Source: Halosimplex halophilum (GTDB lineage Archaea; Halobacteriota; Halobacteria; Halobacteriales; Haloarculaceae). From it: a stretch of 64,000 nt of DNA. The stretch lies in assembly GCF_004698125.1 (NCBI RefSeq), contig NZ_ML214297.1, forward strand, positions 496,001 to 560,000, written 5' to 3'. Within the stretch, counting starts at the first letter, position 1, and each line of letters opens with the position of its first letter. Below the pieces are notes generated by a model, which was not told where the DNA came from, searched no databases, and was given only the letters and a program-made list of their open reading frames with translations. The translations under genes and the position numbers were made by a program. Below, piece after piece: positions 18,257 to 50,609 of this stretch.

Positions 18257-21001
18257 GTGACTATCCGCGGCGTCGTCGTCGACGTGAGCGACCCGAAGAC
18301 CGTCTCGACGCAGTACGGCGAGAGCGAACTCGTCGAGGTGGGCCTCAGACCCGACCGTGGCCGGGGTGAACCGACGACCGTCACGCTGTGGGACAAGTGG
18401 ACCGAGACGGCGACGTACCTCGAAGCCGGGATGGAACTCGCCGTCACGAACCCCGAACAGCGGGAGTACCGCGGCGAGCAGCAGTTCTCGACGACCGGCG
18501 ACTCGATGGTCGTCGTCGAACCGGACTTCCTCGTGGACGTGACCGACGTGCGCTCGTGGGTGCAGTGCCCGCGGATGTACTACCTCAACAAGATCGGCGG
18601 CACGCCCAACGCCTACCCCGTCGTCAAGGGGACCATCGTCCACGAGGTGTTCGGCGACCTCCTCCGGGGCCGGGATCTGGACGAATCCATCGACGAGCGG
18701 GTCGAGGAGGCTGGACTCGAACTCGGGATGCTCGGCCGGACCGCCGACGAGGTGCGCGAGGAGGTGCGCCAGCACGCCTCGGCCATCGAGGGGTGGCTCC
18801 AGCAGGGGACGCTCACCGACGAGGACGAGTGGCGCTCGGAGATGACGCTGGTCAGCGAGACCTACGGGCTGAAGGGGCGGGCCGACGCCGTCCGCCGCGG
18901 GATGCCCGTCGAGCTGAAGACGGGCAAGAACACCAAGCGCGACCCCCGCTTCCACGACAAGGTGCAGGCGACCTGCTACGCGCTCATCCTCGGCGAGCGC
19001 CGCGGGGAGCCGCCCGACACGGGCACCCTCCTCTACACCAAGAACGCGGCCGTCGAGCGGACCGAGGAGAGCGGCGACCTCTCGCCGGCCAAGGAGTTCT
19101 CCATCGGCTCTGGCTTCCTGAAGTTCGTCCTCCGGACCCGGAACGCGCTGGCGGCGATGGAGTACGGCGTCGACGTGCCGACCGGCTACGAGGCCGACGC
19201 CAAGTGCGAGTACTGCTTCGAGCAGGACACCTGCATGGCCGTCTCCGGCCGGCTGGACCAGGAGTCGAAGGCCGGCCAGGTCGGCTCGCCGATCCCCGAG
19301 GAAGAGCGCGAGTACTTCGACCGCGTCTACGAATCGATCGAGCGCGAACGGCGCGCGGTCCACCGCGAGTACGCGAAGCTCTGGGAGCAGAGCCCCGAGG
19401 AGCGGGCCGACGACGACCGGGCGCTGGTGGACCTCGAACCCACGGAACGGACCGAACTCGACGGCGGCCGGTGGGAGCTTCGCGCCCGGGGGACCGGCGC
19501 CGTCTCGAAGATCCGCGAGGGCGACCTGGTGCTGGCCAGCGACGGCGACCCGATCCGCGGCGAGGCCGAACTCGCCCGCGTGGAGCGGCTGGGCGGGGGT
19601 GTCGACGACCCCGAGTCCGACGAGAAGGGGCCCGAGGTCGTCGTCACGGCCGACGAACCCGTCGAACTGCGCCGTATCGACGTGTACCCCTCCGAACTCT
19701 CCACGGACCGGATGCTCACCGCGCTGCACGACGCCGTCCTCACGCAGTCGCCCGACGAGAAGGACGTGCTGTTCGGCCGCCGCGAGCCCGACTTTTCGGC
19801 CGTCGAGGAGACGTTCGTCCCGAACAACGACGCACAGGACGAGGCCGTCGAACTGGCCGTCGGTTGCGAGGACTGCGCGCTTGTCCACGGACCGCCCGGG
19901 ACCGGCAAGACGTATACGCTGGCATACATCGTGCAAGCGCTGGTCGACCGCGGCGAACGGGTCCTGCTCTCGGCCTTTACGAACCGCGCGGTCGACAACG
20001 CGCTCGAAGCGCTCGTCGAGCAGGGCTTCGACGAGTTCGTCCGGGTCGGCACCGAGAGCGGCGTCCGCGAGGACATGCAGGAGTACCGGCTAGAGCGGGC
20101 CGGCGACCCCGACGAGCGGGTAGCCGAGTTGCGGGACGCGAACGTCGTCGCGGCGACGACGGCCACCTGCGGGTCGCGGATCATGCGCGAGCAGGAGTTC
20201 GACGTTGCCGTTGTCGACGAGGCGGGCCAGCTCACCGAACCCGGGACGCTCGCCGCGACGAACCTCGCCGAGCGGTTCGTGCTCGTGGGCGACCACCAGC
20301 AACTACCCCCCGTGGTACAGGCCGACGAGCCCGACCTCGACGACCTGCCGACGGGCGACGACGGGGAGCCCGCTCCGGGCGCTGCGCTCTCCCGGTCGCT
20401 GTTCCAGCGGCTCATCGAGCGCTATCCGGACGCCTCGGTCATGCTCGACCGGCAGTACCGCATGGCCCAGCGCATCCAGGCGTTCGCCTCCCGGGAGTTC
20501 TACGACGGCCAGCTCCGACCGGCGACCGGCGAGGTCGCCGGCCAGCACCTCGGCCAGCTCGACGGCGTCGACGTGGCGGCGCTGCCCGAGCACCTCCGCG
20601 GCCAGGTGGCGTTCGTCGACCCCGACGGGAGCGCGCGGGGCAACACGAACCCGACGGAGGCCGACGCGGTCGCCGAGACCGTCGCGGCCTACCGCGAGGC
20701 GGGCGTCCCGGCCGGGGAGATCGGCGTCATCGCGCCGTTCCGCGCGCAGGTCGCCGAGATCGGCAAGCGGCTCCCCGACGCGGTCGCCGTCGACACCGTC
20801 GACCGCTTCCAGGGCTCCAGCAAGGAGGTCGTCGTCATCTCGTTCGTCGCCACGGGGTCGCTCGACTCCCCGATCTTCGAGGACTACCGCCGCGTCAACG
20901 TCGCGCTCACGCGAGCGAAGAAGGCGCTCGTCCTCGTCGGCGACGCCGACGCGCTCGCCACCGACGACACCTACGGCCGCATGGTCGAGTGGGCCCGCTG
21001 A
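18257..21001 (+). CDS. Dna2-like nuclease-helicase fusion
   Basis: A 914-residue fusion starting at GTG 18257. The N-terminal ~95 residues look OB-fold-like. A Cas4/RecB-type nuclease follows, with H129, D210 and E219-x-K221, and with four cysteines (104, 317, 320 and 326) placed to bind an Fe-S cluster. The C-terminal half is a superfamily 1 helicase with Walker A GPPGTGKT at 545-552, D654-E655 in DEAG, and late motifs VDTVDRFQGSSKE and NVALTRAKKAL. The order matches eukaryotic Dna2, which processes Okazaki flaps and resects DNA ends. It is very likely a DNA replication or repair enzyme. Confidence 0.9.
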   Translation: MTIRGVVVDVSDPKTVSTQYGESELVEVGLRPDRGRGEPTTVTLWDKWTETATYLEAGMELAVTNPEQREYRGEQQFSTTGDSMVVVEPDFLVDVTDVRSWVQCPRMYYLNKIGGTPNAYPVVKGTIVHEVFGDLLRGRDLDESIDERVEEAGLELGMLGRTADEVREEVRQHASAIEGWLQQGTLTDEDEWRSEMTLVSETYGLKGRADAVRRGMPVELKTGKNTKRDPRFHDKVQATCYALILGERRGEPPDTGTLLYTKNAAVERTEESGDLSPAKEFSIGSGFLKFVLRTRNALAAMEYGVDVPTGYEADAKCEYCFEQDTCMAVSGRLDQESKAGQVGSPIPEEEREYFDRVYESIERERRAVHREYAKLWEQSPEERADDDRALVDLEPTERTELDGGRWELRARGTGAVSKIREGDLVLASDGDPIRGEAELARVERLGGGVDDPESDEKGPEVVVTADEPVELRRIDVYPSELSTDRMLTALHDAVLTQSPDEKDVLFGRREPDFSAVEETFVPNNDAQDEAVELAVGCEDCALVHGPPGTGKTYTLAYIVQALVDRGERVLLSAFTNRAVDNALEALVEQGFDEFVRVGTESGVREDMQEYRLERAGDPDERVAELRDANVVAATTATCGSRIMREQEFDVAVVDEAGQLTEPGTLAATNLAERFVLVGDHQQLPPVVQADEPDLDDLPTGDDGEPAPGAALSRSLFQRLIERYPDASVMLDRQYRMAQRIQAFASREFYDGQLRPATGEVAGQHLGQLDGVDVAALPEHLRGQVAFVDPDGSARGNTNPTEADAVAETVAAYREAGVPAGEIGVIAPFRAQVAEIGKRLPDAVAVDTVDRFQGSSKEVVVISFVATGSLDSPIFEDYRRVNVALTRAKKALVLVGDADALATDDTYGRMVEWAR

Positions 21002-21045
21002 CCACGCCGACCCGATCTCCCGCTCCGACCCCGTCACTCGCCGCG

Positions 21046-21183
21046 TTCCACTTTCGCCCCGTGGCTATCACTTTTGACTAGTGAATCGCCGCTCCACTTT
21101 CACCGTGTGGCGAGGTTTTATCCCTAGTTCCGTACCGTTTCAGTTTCACTCCGTGGCGTGGATTTTAGTAGTGGTATCGACGC
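21046..21183. repeat. Three 46-bp degenerate tandem repeats
   Basis: Units start at exactly 21046, 21092 and 21138. The first 20 positions are the best conserved, close to (t/c)TcCAcTTTC(a/g)CnccGTGGC, with an inverted CCAC/GTGG pair in the first two units. A second block of T-rich sequence, TTTTnnnctag-like, recurs near position 26-36 of each. They occupy the gap between the Dna2-like gene and the PAP2 gene and stop about 23 bases before the PAP2 promoter box. Confidence 0.75.
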
Positions 21184-21205
21184 CGAGAGATGTCGCCGGG
21201 GTGGG

Positions 21206-21215
21206 AAAGTATAAG
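21206..21215 (+). promoter_or_regulatory. TATA-like promoter box of the PAP2 phosphatase gene
   Basis: The box AAAGTATAAG is the only AT-rich block near the gene and lies 25-34 bases before ATG 21240, the spacing expected for a leaderless haloarchaeal transcript. Confidence 0.6.
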
Positions 21216-21239
21216 CGGGCGGCGGACACGGAGGCGGGT

Positions 21240-22088
21240 ATGTTTCGGCTGGTCGCGGCGAGCGAGGCGATCCGCGGGGCGGTCCCGGCGGAGCTGGTGC
21301 CGGTGTTCGGGCTCGTCACGGTCCTCGGCGGGTCGAAGTTCCTGATGGTGGCGCTGTCGCTGGCGTACTGGAACGACGGGTCCCGGCGCCGGGAGCTGCT
21401 GACGGTGGTCGGCGTCGCGTTCGTCGCGGTGTCGGTGACGCTGGCGCTGAAGTACGGGTTCGGCCTGCCGAGGCCGCCGGCGGCCGCCCGACGGGTCGCG
21501 GTCGACCCCAGCCCCGTCGGCTTCCCGAGCGGACACGCCATCGCGGCGACGACCGTCTACGGGGGCCTGCTGGTCGCGCTCGACCGCTACCGCGACCCGA
21601 AGTTCCTCGCGGGGGCGGGCGCGCTGGTGGCGCTCGTCGGCCTCTCGCGGGTCGTCATCGGCGTCCACTACCTCGGCGACGTGCTCGCGGGCTTCGCCGT
21701 GGGACTGGTGATGGTCGGCGTGGTCGCCGTCGCCCTCGACCGCGGCCCGACCCCGGTGTTCGGCCTCGCGGTCGTCTGCTCGGTCCCGGCGGTGCTCCTG
21801 GCTGCGGCCCCGGGCGACGCGGCGCTCGCGATGGGCGGCAGCGTCGGCGGCCTGGCGGGCGCGGCGTGGCGGACCGGCGCCGAGCGGTTCCGCTCGCTGG
21901 TCGAGCGCGTCGCGGTCACCGCCGGTGGCGTCGCGTACCTCGTGGCGACCATCGCCGTCGTCCAGACGGTGGAACCGCTCTTCCTCCCCGCGGCGGCCGC
22001 CAACGCCGCGCTGACGTTCGGGATCGTCGCGCTCCCCTCGCTGGTCGGCCGGTTCGACGCGTTCGCGGGGGCGAGCGCGACCGACTGA
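21240..22088 (+). CDS. PAP2-superfamily membrane phosphatase
   Basis: A 282-residue integral membrane protein carrying all three PAP2 motifs: KYGFGLPRP (71-79), PSGH (96-99) and SRVVIGVHYLGD (136-147), with the catalytic histidines at 99 and 143. Such enzymes remove phosphate from lipid phosphates or polyprenyl diphosphates at the membrane surface. There are additional hydrophobic helices in the C-terminal half. ATG 21240 was chosen because a TATA-like box lies 25-34 bases upstream; the in-frame extension before it covers the tandem repeats and is not protein-like. Confidence 0.92.
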   Translation: MFRLVAASEAIRGAVPAELVPVFGLVTVLGGSKFLMVALSLAYWNDGSRRRELLTVVGVAFVAVSVTLALKYGFGLPRPPAAARRVAVDPSPVGFPSGHAIAATTVYGGLLVALDRYRDPKFLAGAGALVALVGLSRVVIGVHYLGDVLAGFAVGLVMVGVVAVALDRGPTPVFGLAVVCSVPAVLLAAAPGDAALAMGGSVGGLAGAAWRTGAERFRSLVERVAVTAGGVAYLVATIAVVQTVEPLFLPAAAANAALTFGIVALPSLVGRFDAFAGASATD

Positions 22089-22163
22089 GCTGGCTGACGG
22101 CGCCGAGGCGAGAGAGGGTACCGGACCGGCAAGTTCTCGGGGGCGGCGGTGTTACTGGCGAGC

Positions 22164-23387
22164 GTGCCAGTCGAACTCCCACTGGGCGAGGGGACCGTCT
22201 CCGTCTCGCTCCCCGACTGCGACGTGACCGTCTGCCGGCCGCCCGGCGGCGAGGCGGTCGACCCGCGCGATGCGGCCGAGGCGGCGGTCGCCGACCCGCA
22301 CGGGCCGCGGCTCGCCCGCCGCGTCGACCCCGACGACACGGTCGGGATCGTCGTTACGGACGTGACCCGCGCGACCCCGGACGACGTGCTGCTGGACGTG
22401 TTGCTCGACGAACTCCGTTCGGCGGGCGTCGCCCGCGAGCAGGTGACCGTGATCATCGGGCTGGGACTGCACCGCCCGATGAGTGACGCGGAGATCGAGC
22501 GCGCGCTGGGCGACCACGCCGACCTCGCCGTCAACCACGACCCCGACGCGACGGTCGAGGTCGGCGAGGTGGACGGAACTCCTATCGAGATCAACGAGAC
22601 GCTGACGCGGGTCGACACCGTCCTCGCGACGGGGATGGTCGAGCCCCACCAGTACGCCGGCTTCTCCGGCGGCGCGAAGACCGTCGTGGTCGGCGCCGGC
22701 GGCGAGTCGCAGATCGGCTACTCCCACGGCCCCGAACTGCTCGCGCGCGACGGCGTCCGCCTCGGGCGCGTCGACGACAACCCCTTCCGCGCGTTCGTCG
22801 ACGAGGCCGGCGACCTGGCGGGCGTCGCGTTCTCCCTGAACGTCACCCACGGCCCGAGCGGCATCCTCGGCGCCGCCGCGGGCGATCCCCGGCCAGTGGT
22901 CCGCGACCTCGCCGACACGGCCCGGGAAGCCCTCGCGACGCCCGTCGAGGACGGCTACGACGCCGTCGTCGCCGGCGTCGGCGCGCCGAAGGACGCCAAC
23001 CTCTACCAGACGACGCGGGCCGCCACCTACGTCGTGCTGGGGGCGCACAACCCACTCCGGGACGGCGGCCGGGTCGTGATCCCGGCGGCGCTCCCCGAGG
23101 GCGCCGGCGAGGGGACGGGCGAGCAGCGGTTCTACGACTGGCTCTCCTCGGCGGAGAGCGCTGAGGCGCTCTACGACGAGATGCGCGAGGGGTACGAACC
23201 CGGCGCCCAGCGCGCGTTCGTCGTCGCTCGCACTCTCCGGGACCAGGACATCTACGTCACGAACAGCGAGGCGCCCGAGGTAGTCGAGGAGTGTCTGATG
23301 CACGCACGCGATTCGGTGGCCGACGCCGTCGAACCCGGCAGCGACGTGCTGGTCGTCCCCGACGCGCTCGACACGCTGCTGGTCTGA
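22164..23387 (+). CDS. larA: Nickel-dependent lactate racemase family protein (LarA-like)
   Basis: About 407 residues from GTG 22164; GTG 22149 is an alternative five codons earlier. Family landmarks are present: D66-V-T-R69 (TDVTRATPDD), H103 in GLHRPMSD, H162 in EPHQYAGFSGG, and K172 in GGAKTVV. LarA racemises lactate or other 2-hydroxyacids with a covalently bound nickel-pincer nucleotide made by LarB, LarC and LarE. A larB gene lies at 35692-36462 in this window. Haloarchaeal members may act on substrates other than lactate. Confidence 0.88.
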   Translation: MPVELPLGEGTVSVSLPDCDVTVCRPPGGEAVDPRDAAEAAVADPHGPRLARRVDPDDTVGIVVTDVTRATPDDVLLDVLLDELRSAGVAREQVTVIIGLGLHRPMSDAEIERALGDHADLAVNHDPDATVEVGEVDGTPIEINETLTRVDTVLATGMVEPHQYAGFSGGAKTVVVGAGGESQIGYSHGPELLARDGVRLGRVDDNPFRAFVDEAGDLAGVAFSLNVTHGPSGILGAAAGDPRPVVRDLADTAREALATPVEDGYDAVVAGVGAPKDANLYQTTRAATYVVLGAHNPLRDGGRVVIPAALPEGAGEGTGEQRFYDWLSSAESAEALYDEMREGYEPGAQRAFVVARTLRDQDIYVTNSEAPEVVEECLMHARDSVADAVEPGSDVLVVPDALDTLLV

Positions 23388-40402: not shown

Positions 40403-41851
40403 ATGGACTGGGATTCACTCGAACTCACGCGCCCGCTGGCCGCCCGTCTCTGCGTGGTCGCCCTCGTCGCGGCACTGCTCGTGCCGTCGGGCGTCTCGGC
40501 GCTCACGCACGAACCCGTCGAACTCCAGAAGGGCGCCATCGACGAGGCCGCCAACGGCACAACCGTCATCGCCGTCCAGGGGTTCAAGGGCCGCGGACAG
40601 AACAGCTCCAAGAAGCCCGCGCGGCTCGTCGGCGTCGGTCCCGAGGGCGACCTCGAGTGGAACTACGAGCCCAAGGAGGACGTGACGTGGTTCTACGACG
40701 TGGACCCGCTGGACGACGGCACGCTGCTGGTCGTCGGCGCCCGCACCGACGGCACGACCGTCTTCAAGTACGACCCCGACACGAACAGCCGCGTCTGGAC
40801 GGAGCGGCTCGACATCCACGACACCCACGACGTGGACCTGATCAACGGCGATCAGCTGCTGATCGCCAACATGCGCAACTACAACGAGACGACCGGGACG
40901 AACAACGACCGCATCTTCGTCTACAACCGGACGACCGGCGAGACGGAGTGGGAGTACCGCTTCGAGCGCATCTACGACCGCGGGGACGGCGGCAGCTACA
41001 CCGGCGACTGGACCCACGTCAACGACGTGGACAAGATCGGCGAGGGCCGGTACATGGCCTCGCCGCGCAACATGGACGAGGTGGTCGTGATCAACCGCTC
41101 GACCAAGGAGGTCGAGCTGTCGCTCGGCGCCCCCGGCGACCACAGCGTCATCTACGAGCAGCACAACCCCAACTACATCGAGAGCGAGGACGGGACCCCG
41201 ACCGTCGTCGTCGCCGACAGCGAGAACGACCGCGTCGTCGAGTACGAGTACGCGGGCGGCGAGGGTCGCAACGCCACCTGGGAGCGCACCTGGAACCTCG
41301 GGGTCGACGGCAACCTGAACTGGCCCCGCGACGCCGACCGCCTCCCCAACGGCAACACGCTCGTCACCGACTCGCTCAACCACCGCGTCATGGAGGTCAC
41401 CCCCGAGGGCGAAGTGGTCTGGGAGTACTACGCCCCCTGGGGCACCTACGAGGCCGAGCGAATGCATCTCGGCGACGAACCCGGCGGCCCCACCATCGCC
41501 GACCAGGACGCCGAGGGCGCCTACGCCCTGAACGGTAGCGCCGCGCTCACCCCCGGCGCGACCGAACGGGCCACCTTCGCCTCGTGGCTCCGCAACACGT
41601 TCGCGGGCACGCCCATCTCGGGACAGGTCGACTCGTTCGCCGAGCGGTGGGCCCACGTCGCCCCCTGGGTCCGCCCCGTCTGGATGGACCCGTGGGCGTT
41701 CGTCGCCTTCCTCGGCGCCGCCGTCGTCACCCTCGGCTGGACCGGCGCCGAGGCGGTCTACCACCGCCGCTGGATCGGCGGCCGCCTCCGCGCCGGCTAC
41801 GAGCGCCTGCGCCCCTCGGACGGCGCCGACTCGACCCGCTCGGACGACTGA
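40403..41851 (+). CDS. Arylsulfotransferase-like beta-propeller membrane protein
   Basis: A 482-residue exported protein. An N-terminal signal anchor (about 14-34) leads to a six-bladed-type propeller with repeated motifs such as DVDPLDDGTLLVVGAR, DRLPNGNTLVTDS and TPEGEVVWEYY, as in ASST/arylsulfotransferase-family proteins. The domain carries several N-x-S/T sites. A second membrane helix is at about 433-452, with a basic C-terminal tail. True sulfotransferase activity is uncertain, because the key active-site histidines were not verified. Confidence 0.8.
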   Translation: MDWDSLELTRPLAARLCVVALVAALLVPSGVSALTHEPVELQKGAIDEAANGTTVIAVQGFKGRGQNSSKKPARLVGVGPEGDLEWNYEPKEDVTWFYDVDPLDDGTLLVVGARTDGTTVFKYDPDTNSRVWTERLDIHDTHDVDLINGDQLLIANMRNYNETTGTNNDRIFVYNRTTGETEWEYRFERIYDRGDGGSYTGDWTHVNDVDKIGEGRYMASPRNMDEVVVINRSTKEVELSLGAPGDHSVIYEQHNPNYIESEDGTPTVVVADSENDRVVEYEYAGGEGRNATWERTWNLGVDGNLNWPRDADRLPNGNTLVTDSLNHRVMEVTPEGEVVWEYYAPWGTYEAERMHLGDEPGGPTIADQDAEGAYALNGSAALTPGATERATFASWLRNTFAGTPISGQVDSFAERWAHVAPWVRPVWMDPWAFVAFLGAAVVTLGWTGAEAVYHRRWIGGRLRAGYERLRPSDGADSTRSDD

Positions 41852-49190: not shown

Positions 49191-49283
49191 ACCCGGGCGA
49201 TAGGGACGCGTCGACTAATGGGCACCGGCGGCGCCGGCGGGTTCCTGCGACCACTTTACCGCGACCGCCTTACCGCGACCACC

Positions 49284-49491
49284 CTACCGCGACAGCAACA
49301 CCATCACCGCACCGCCGCCGCCGACGCTCACTCCCGTCGGCGCCGGCGGTCTCACACAACCGCCCTACCGCGATAGCAACACCATCACCGCACCGCCGCC
49401 GCCGACGCTCACTCCCGTCGGCGCCGGCGGTCTCACACAACCGCCCTACCGCGATAGCAACACCATCACCGCACCGCCGCCGCCGACGCTC
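49284..49491. repeat. 81-bp tandem repeat spanning the thiolase 3' end
   Basis: Units start at 49284, 49365 and 49446 (period 81 bp); the third is partial and merges with the thiolase coding end. Copies 2 and 3 are identical over the shared part, and copy 1 differs by about one base (gacagc versus gatagc). Each unit carries the codons for the last ~14 residues of thiolase and a stop. A shorter 14-bp array (TACCGCGACnnCC type) precedes the first unit. It is clearly a recent duplication. Confidence 0.85.
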
Positions 49492-50609
49492 ATCCCCACA
49501 ACTCCGAGATCGTGGTCCTCCCGAACCATCGCGTGGGCGGTCGTCGTCGCCAGGATCCCGCCGCTGGCGCCGATGGGGTGGCCCAGCGCCACCGCGCCGC
49601 CGAGCGGGTTCAGCCGCTCCTCCGGGATCCCGAGCCTGTCCCGCACGTAGACCGTCTGGGCGGCGAACGCCTCGTTGACCTCGTAGTGGTCCACGTCGTC
49701 GACGGCCAGGTCGTTTCGCGCCAGTAGCTTCTCGATGGCGTCGCCGACGGCCTGGGAGAACTCCGCGGGGTCGCGGTAGGCGACGGCGTAGTCCTCGACG
49801 TGGACCATCGGCCCGAGCCCGTGTTCCTCGGCGGCCTCCGCGCTGGCGAGGACGACGCCGCCGGCCCCGTCCGCCAGCTTCGAGGCGTTGCCCGGCGTGA
49901 TGGTTCCGTCCTCGCGGAACGCCGCGGGCAGCCCCCTGAGCCGGTCCAGCGAGGTGTCGGCCCGCGGCCCCTCGTCGGTGGTGACGAGCCGGTCGTCGAC
50001 CTCGACCGGGACGAGTTCCTCGTCGAAGCGGCCCTCCTCGATCGACTCGGCCGCGCGGCGGTTGCTCCGCAGCGCGTAGCGGTCCTGGGCCTCGCGGGTG
50101 ATGTCGTGAGCCTCGGCCAGCCGCTCGGTGAGTTCGCCCATGTGGGCGTCGTAGCCCACGTCCCACAGCGCGTCGAAGATCATCGAGTCGACCAGCTCGG
50201 TGTTGCCGTGACGACGGCCCTCGCGCAGCTCCCGGAGGAGGTACGGCGCGTTCGACATCGACTCCATCCCGCCGCCGACGGCGATGTCGACCCGACCGGC
50301 CGCGATGCGGTCCGCGGCGAGCGTGATGGCGCGCAGTCCCGACCCGGACGCCTCGTTGACGGTCGTCGCCGGCGTGTCATCGGGGAGCCCCGCCCGCGTG
50401 ACCGCCTGCCGCGCGGGGACCTGTCCGACGCCCGCCTGGACGGCGTTGCCCAGCCCGACCCAGTCGATATCCCCGGCGTCGACGCCGGAGCGGTCGACCA
50501 GGTCCTCCAGCACCGTCGCGCCCAGCTCCGGCGCGCGCACGTCCGACAGCGACCCGAGCATCGCGCCGTGGGCGGTCCGCGATCCGTCGACTATCACTAC
50601 GTCTGTCAT
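49446..50609 (-). CDS. Thiolase-family protein with serines in place of catalytic cysteines
   Basis: A 387-residue thiolase-fold protein. The first catalytic position, normally C in VNxxCGSG, is S88 (VNEASGSG), and the C-terminal CIGGG position is S374 (MSVGGGG). H344 in GHPIGASG and the NEAF motif are kept. It may therefore be a haloarchaeal-type ketothiolase with an altered nucleophile or a divergent, perhaps degradative, acyl-CoA enzyme. From memory, haloarchaeal ketothiolases with a Ser-based triad have been described. Its 3' end is repeated in the adjacent 81-bp array. Confidence 0.85.
   Translation of the reverse strand: MTDVVIVDGSRTAHGAMLGSLSDVRAPELGATVLEDLVDRSGVDAGDIDWVGLGNAVQAGVGQVPARQAVTRAGLPDDTPATTVNEASGSGLRAITLAADRIAAGRVDIAVGGGMESMSNAPYLLRELREGRRHGNTELVDSMIFDALWDVGYDAHMGELTERLAEAHDITREAQDRYALRSNRRAAESIEEGRFDEELVPVEVDDRLVTTDEGPRADTSLDRLRGLPAAFREDGTITPGNASKLADGAGGVVLASAEAAEEHGLGPMVHVEDYAVAYRDPAEFSQAVGDAIEKLLARNDLAVDDVDHYEVNEAFAAQTVYVRDRLGIPEERLNPLGGAVALGHPIGASGGILATTTAHAMVREDHDLGVVGMSVGGGGAVMVLLSR

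Follow-up and report, generated by a model that had tools for sequence, protein, structure and literature searches.

In Halobacterium, the sequence TTTCACTTTCA was described upstream of the TATA box of the UV-B induced genes radA1, top6B, vng17 and vng280, and npa was counted as a near match (Boubriak et al. 2008, PMC2556686). A regulator was proposed in the same report, its identity then being not known. UV induction of radA1, the rfa genes, nrdJ and the SF1 helicase gene dbp was described by McCready et al. 2005 (PMC1224876). Since Boubriak et al. 2008 described TTTCACTTTCA, the UV motif itself is already known. A literature search for this sequence in archaea gave nothing beyond their report, apart from one delta-proteobacteria paper, and among the matches listed no regulator of the haloarchaeal UV motif was recognised by name.

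Two regulators from other archaeal systems are of relevance for comparison. In Saccharolobus, Orc1-2 is described as regulating the damage response globally and as binding ANTTTC, its own promoter included (PMC9738581). For the S. acidocaldarius upsE promoter, replacement of ACTTTC is reported to abolish activity (PMC5817253). In the Sulfolobus DDRE the hexamer is placed at positions -44 to -39 relative to the transcription start, and Orc1-2 is described as being without the four ORB-contacting arginines of initiators (PMC5817253, PMC9738581). In Haloferax, the published targets of the CdrS regulon include dacZ, ftsZ1 and threonine ammonia-lyase (PMC8406309).

Here we analysed a 64,000-nucleotide stretch of the Halosimplex halophilum genome (C1:496001-560000), called the window in the following, which holds a tandem array of sites similar to the UV motif. 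The cores of these sites show one or two differences from the Halobacterium motif; they lie on the same side of a TATA-like box as that motif, at a comparable position. Compared with the published 11-mer TTTCACTTTCA, the three units of the window have 2, 2 and 1 mismatches; the exact 11-mer occurs in 3 of the 24 units that we read in the genus. While the Halobacterium UV-B promoters contain one copy each as described, the Halosimplex array has three to five copies with a 46-bp step before a PAP2 gene. It also contains additional GTGG and CTAG elements, and the consensus is extended to TTTCACTTTCACYCCG. As far as the searched literature shows, the array form, the extended consensus and the class-wide spread are new.

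The 46-bp array upstream of the PAP2 gene

The array lies between a dna2-like gene, whose stop codon is 42 bp ahead of it, and a PAP2 gene with its own core promoter. The features of the locus are:

18257..21001, + strand: Dna2-like SF1 helicase/nuclease gene (Pfam Dna2 PF08696, E 8.2e-22; AAA_11, AAA_12)
21044..21089, + strand: array unit 1, with core TTCCACTTTCGCCCCG at 21046-21061, TGGC at 21062-21065 and AT box TTTTGACTAG at 21072-21081
21090..21135, + strand: array unit 2, with core CTCCACTTTCACCGTG at 21092-21107, TGGC at 21108-21111 and AT box TTTTATCCCTAG at 21116-21127
21136..21181, + strand: array unit 3, with core TTTCAGTTTCACTCCG at 21138-21153, TGGC at 21154-21157 and AT box TTTTAG at 21163-21168
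21205..21216, + strand: PAP2 core promoter, BRE/TATA-like GAAAGTATAAGC, with TATAA at 21210
21240..22088, + strand: PAP2-superfamily phosphatase gene (Pfam PF01569, E 6.5e-20)
22149..23387, + strand: LarA-like gene 3' of PAP2 (Pfam Lar_N, E 8.4e-37), start codon unsettled

The preliminary description of the window had reported three tandem units with a step of exactly 46 bp, which we confirmed in the sequence. The spacing was retained, while the register was moved by two bases, such that the units now start at 21044, 21090 and 21136 rather than at 21046, 21092 and 21138. Scanning the window with the consensus CNYTYCASTTTCRCYNYGTGGC, which was derived from the array units themselves, returned three exact matches and one site with 3 mismatches at 41567. 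For up to 3 mismatches, dinucleotide shuffles gave an expectation of 0.15 matches, and four matches were attained in 0 of 100 shuffles. A second array was not found within the window with this pattern, in agreement with what had been noted before. The evidence for the array is formed by an ungapped repeat search and by the relatives, because the array was absent from the output of Tandem Repeats Finder at score 30. A strong tandem array of another kind was seen at 49247-49496 of the window (81-bp unit, 2.7 copies, 97% matches), adjoining a 14-bp repeat. Rfam gave no match at 20900-21400, and a known RNA family was rejected for the array.

Conservation of the array upstream of PAP2 orthologues had been suggested as a check. 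Between the dna2-like gene and PAP2 the array was kept in all seven Halosimplex genomes examined, H. pelagicum and H. aquaticum among them, with three units in five of them, four in one (G032) and five in H. aquaticum (24 units in total). All steps were 46 bp, except for 45 and 43 bp in H. aquaticum. The units follow the layout CGYTYCASTTTCRCYSYGTGGC and then an AT box, mostly of type TTTATNNCTAG or TTTTGACTAG. A-N-TTTC, with N being C or G, was kept in 23/24 units, TGGC at +16 in 21/24 and a four-base A/T box in every unit. The types of unit 1 and unit 2 recur in order across species, and variation within the units is found at positions outside the core, which is itself almost invariant. For comparison, the identity of the PAP2 protein is 85% to H. 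pelagicum and 69% to H. aquaticum.

A pairing of the form CCAC-N9-GTGG had been put forward for two of the three window units. This is correct for the window; in the seven genomes, however, the pairing is kept in only 11/24 units versus 22/24 for GTGG alone. The pairing is therefore not the conserved feature, and a CCAC/GTGG palindrome as the basis of the unit was rejected.

Between the last unit and the PAP2 ATG there are 104 to 118 bp, depending on which of the seven genomes is considered. A TATA box following the array, as noted initially, is present in each of them as TATAA at -30 or -31 from the PAP2 ATG. The PAP2 gene is the likely target of regulation by the array, possibly in one operon with the LarA-like gene. 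We know of no damage role for PAP2.

A strict array pattern, searched in 391 haloarchaeal genomes, had three matches, which correspond to the three Halosimplex genomes in the list. Among these sampled genomes no other genus contained the strict pattern, which looser arrays would escape. In two genomes of other genera (G016, G044) tblastn placed the dna2-like gene directly before PAP2, with no core match between the genes. In a third genus (G027) the genes are about 480 bp apart and there was no core match between them, only one lone TTTCAC. Absence from relatives with the same gene order, which the preliminary description had raised as a point against the array, is thus found outside the genus (G016, G044, G027) and is false for all seven Halosimplex genomes. 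Since these seven have the array and other genera are without the strict pattern, it appears to be old within Halosimplex and restricted to the genus.

The core motif in haloarchaeal promoters

Taken by itself, the core is widespread. In the own genome it was found with up to 2 mismatches at 21 places, versus 5 for the reversed pattern. TTTCACTTTCACNCCG occurred in 42 of 57 family genomes (reversed control 0), and the extended consensus TTTCACTTTCACYCCG in 280 of 391 genomes of the class, covering 69 of 86 genera, with one match seen for the reversed-pattern control. As exact matching was used, the true number of sites is underestimated. From the list of family places 93 were fetched and read, with G016:C26, G027:C37 and G031:C98 left out; subtracting the two array loci gives 91 single-copy sites.

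At the single-copy sites an AT-rich box peaks at 28-33 bp from the motif start. In the array units the box is found at 24-29 bp, i.e. about 4 bp nearer. Among the 91 single-copy sites, 30 have a TGGC beginning 17-23 bp from the motif start, compared with 4, 2 and 0 for three control stretches of equal length, and the other 61 have none in this interval. When present, it is located 7-10 bp ahead of the AT box in 28 of 30 cases. Two elements set the array apart: GTGG directly after the motif (22/24 units versus 1/91 single-copy sites) and CTAG (20/24 versus 3/91).

The reading frames downstream of the motif were grouped over 100 of 102 loci, with relaxed matches from the own genome included; the remaining two, L034 and L037, are without motif under the pattern. 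The groups comprise a small zinc protein (16 loci), ribonucleotide reductase (11; L107, L113 and L116 joined via blastp grouping only), replication factor A (8), Top6B (5, all Halosimplex), RadA (4), threonine ammonia-lyase (4) and others, part of them without assignment. RadA and Top6B are thereby target genes shared with the Halobacterium UV-B motif elsewhere in haloarchaea. One member each of RadA, replication factor A, ribonucleotide reductase, Top6B, Hef, MCM, TnpB and threonine ammonia-lyase was compared with NCBIfam. RadA, replication factor A and Top6B scored above the curated cut-off. B12-dependent ribonucleotide reductase (nrdJ), Hef and MCM scored below it, with translated stretches that were partial. 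A ninth, small downstream protein had no NCBIfam family. Taken by its sequence context, the core is a putative class-wide promoter element of haloarchaea. In viral_contigs 30 exact matches were found, which we guess to be about the chance level for a collection of that size, and viral spread of the core was rejected.

Several single loci deserve mention on their own. In G000:C4 the start of a TnpB gene (L034:1558-2808), belonging to an RNA-guided nuclease family, is preceded by a near match to the UV motif; this recalls the npa transposase, described as UV-induced in Halobacterium. An MCM-like gene in G000:C2 (L037:1563-3014) has a motif with 2 mismatches upstream and contains an intein N-terminal region. 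A further sequence, CACACG[CT]TC, mostly in the form TGTCACACGCTC, was seen 58-104 bp from the motif start in 22 of 93 family sites. It follows the UV motif at L046, L055, L098, L101, L111, L115, L121-L123, L139, L151 and L152, and is found in ilvA leaders at L023, L148, L150 and L155. In seven of twelve folded cases (L046, L055, L098, L101, L111, L115, L151) it forms the tip of a stem of the GGGGYC...GGCCCC type. Comparison of 10 of these loci with Rfam gave no match (E up to 0.1). The sequence may possibly belong to a small RNA or leader element that is under damage control and has so far escaped description.

We also considered CdrS as the protein that binds the array. Its sites, like those studied here, are sites of a haloarchaeal regulator upstream of promoters, and threonine ammonia-lyase appears in both target lists. 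The promoters of the CdrS targets of dacZ and ftsZ1 type are, in contrast, without the CACTTTC core, and many have a sequence of the GTCAGACG type instead. In the 200 bp before the first in-frame ATG the core was found in none of 13 dacZ and 8 ftsZ1-type loci; one lone TTTCAC occurred in L293 of the ftsZ1-type set, and the choice of start looks wrong for L281 and L294. Eight ftsZ2-type loci were left out because ftsZ2 is not in the published CdrS target table. Despite the shared threonine ammonia-lyase target, CdrS was therefore rejected as the array binder. Sites of the GTCAGACG/CGTCAGAC type were present in 6 of 13 dacZ loci (L275-L287) and 7 of 8 ftsZ1-type loci (L290-L297), and may be a CdrS site conserved over haloarchaeal genera. 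In three Halosimplex genomes (L025, L068, L069) only a few bases separate the UV motif from a downstream GTCAGACG...GTCACACG, such that the motif might overlap a CdrS-like site.

Readings of the array

We consider it somewhat probable that haloarchaeal DNA-damage (UV) promoter modules aimed at PAP2 are stacked in the array, three of them here and three to five in relatives. Each unit would then consist of a near match to the UV motif (TTTCACTTTCACYCCG), as a rule TGGC, and a TATA-like AT box. Judged by the positions of TGGC and the AT box in comparison with single-copy sites, the unit can be regarded as a damage-promoter module with a motif-box gap shorter by about 4 bp and an added CTAG. A damage-responsive regulator would bind the ACTTTC core and, once bound, recruit or gate TBP/TFB at the units. 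Several units may in this way render the damage induction of PAP2 strong or graded, in addition to what its own proximal TATA box provides. What speaks against a stack is that a start from one unit falls inside the next one, which is odd for productive promoters; GTGG and CTAG are array features outside the module explanation. Further points against it are the mismatches to the published 11-mer, the shorter motif-box gap, the variable distance to the PAP2 ATG and the 61 single-copy sites without TGGC. An array for a multi-site regulator in front of PAP2, the more general suggestion made at the outset, has good support from the class-wide core and from the presence of the array in all seven Halosimplex genomes examined.

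The main rival to the promoter stack is an enhancer-like array, in which the units only bind the regulator, the AT boxes do not serve as TATA boxes and all transcripts start at the PAP2 TATA box at 21210. It would account for the conservation of the proximal TATAA in all seven genomes and would avoid the interference expected of promoters stacked at 46 bp; the array-specific GTGG and CTAG likewise suggest a site larger than the ordinary module. Each unit, however, has an AT box near the module distance, mostly after TGGC as at one third of the single-copy sites. In addition, the spacing between the last unit and the TATA box varies and a step of 46 bp does not correspond to an integral number of helical turns, and we consider such an arrangement rather unlikely. 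Slippage from a single regulatory site, leaving units that titrate the regulator or do nothing, would fit the variable copy number of three to five and the occurrence of the array pattern in one genus only. That unit types correspond across species and that the core is nearly invariant while the rest varies is unexpected for neutral repeats, which makes this origin improbable.

Two further readings were considered. The run of four T in each window unit and the position of the array 42 bp past the dna2-like stop codon would suit T-tract transcription terminators of that gene. Yet in relatives the run often reads TTTAT, the core and not the T run is most invariant, and elsewhere the core precedes an AT box and, at many loci, a conserved gene start; terminators are thus very unlikely. 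Constant spacing of tandem sites and the association between the core and one Orc gene might also be expected if an Orc initiator bound here at a replication origin (ORB array), and an initiator array was among the initial suggestions. This was not supported: within C1:496001-560000 no Orc/Cdc6 match (TIGR02928) was found at E up to 0.001, 4-kb bins revealed no clear skew change near 21 kb, and the core elsewhere resembles a promoter element preceding AT boxes. We regard an origin array as scarcely credible. An initiator-like protein may nevertheless be the binder in another form, given the Orc/Cdc6 paralogue whose own gene is marked by the motif.

As a naturally multiplied form of the likely site of the UV regulator, the array offers a good bait and reporter.

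An Orc/Cdc6 paralogue as candidate regulator

In the own genome, a 16-bp core identical to that of unit 1 is located before an Orc/Cdc6 gene (NF001626) at L031 (G000:C2:470270). A single copy of this Orc type was detected (E up to 1e-90) in 55 of the 57 family genomes; the two genomes without a match are 57% and 60% complete. Upstream regions were read for the best 30 of the 55 loci, ordered by score, such that the set leans towards near relatives. The relaxed forward core CA[CG]TT[TC]C[AG]C was present 54-58 bp before the Orc start in 10 of these 30 loci, from four genera; at L187, a fifth Halosimplex Orc locus, CACTTTTGC takes its place. An inverse core, GGTGAAAGT[AG], was found just before the Orc ATG in 25 of the 30 orthologues. 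The combined pattern TTAAGT-N(11-18)-GGTGAAAGTRATG-NNNGANGAN occurred in 83 of 391 genomes and 21 of 86 genera, once per genome (control 0), and all 30 loci fetched with it encode an Orc of the NF001626 type according to tblastn. With 308 of 391 genomes being without an exact match, the pattern is exact in only about one fifth of the class. Judged by the TATA spacing, we infer that the inverted copy would lie just upstream of the start site, a position fit for repression. The GGTGA before the Orc start could also be a Shine-Dalgarno-like sequence, against which the TATA spacing argues. For seven other Orc/Cdc6 matches read in the own genome there was no core match upstream and one lone TTTCAC in L231; start codons are uncertain in this comparison, and L232 gave no start.

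The parallel to Sulfolobus concerns both the site and the protein. A-N-TTTC is present in 23/24 units, a likeness that is weak alone since hexamers with one free position turn up often, and the hexamer is, as in the DDRE, located upstream of TATA-like boxes. The haloarchaeal element is longer than ANTTTC, and from the AT-box position its hexamer would be at about -54 to -49, i.e. roughly one helical turn further upstream than in Sulfolobus. Like Orc1-2, the haloarchaeal Orc paralogue has the motif in its own gene promoter, where its binding is putative. Three of the four ORB-contact arginines are replaced in the Orc of G000 (TRVG versus RRRR), and TRVG is also found in four orthologues (L198, L200, L208, L210). 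The paralogue L233 of the same genome keeps RRKR. Two points speak against a link to Orc1-2: other Orc paralogues also lack some or all of the arginines, and the nearest solved chains to the marked Orc are 2v1u and 2qby_A, initiator-type ORC1 structures.

From this comparative analysis, the conserved Orc/Cdc6 paralogue is a candidate regulator of the UV motif, which is the least certain step of our interpretation. Tentatively, and as a possibility on the unlikely side, we propose a LexA-like haloarchaeal damage regulon. In such a regulon the single-copy Orc would bind TTTCACTTTCACYCCG at radA, rpa, nrdJ, top6B and other genes, repress its own gene via an inverted copy (GGTGAAAGTG) ending at the start codon, and act on the Halosimplex PAP2 array. 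The class-wide motif together with the marked Orc gene makes the question of who reads TTTCACTTTCA experimentally tractable. If the proposal is true, Orc-based control of the damage response would be common to crenarchaea and haloarchaea, two distant archaeal lineages.
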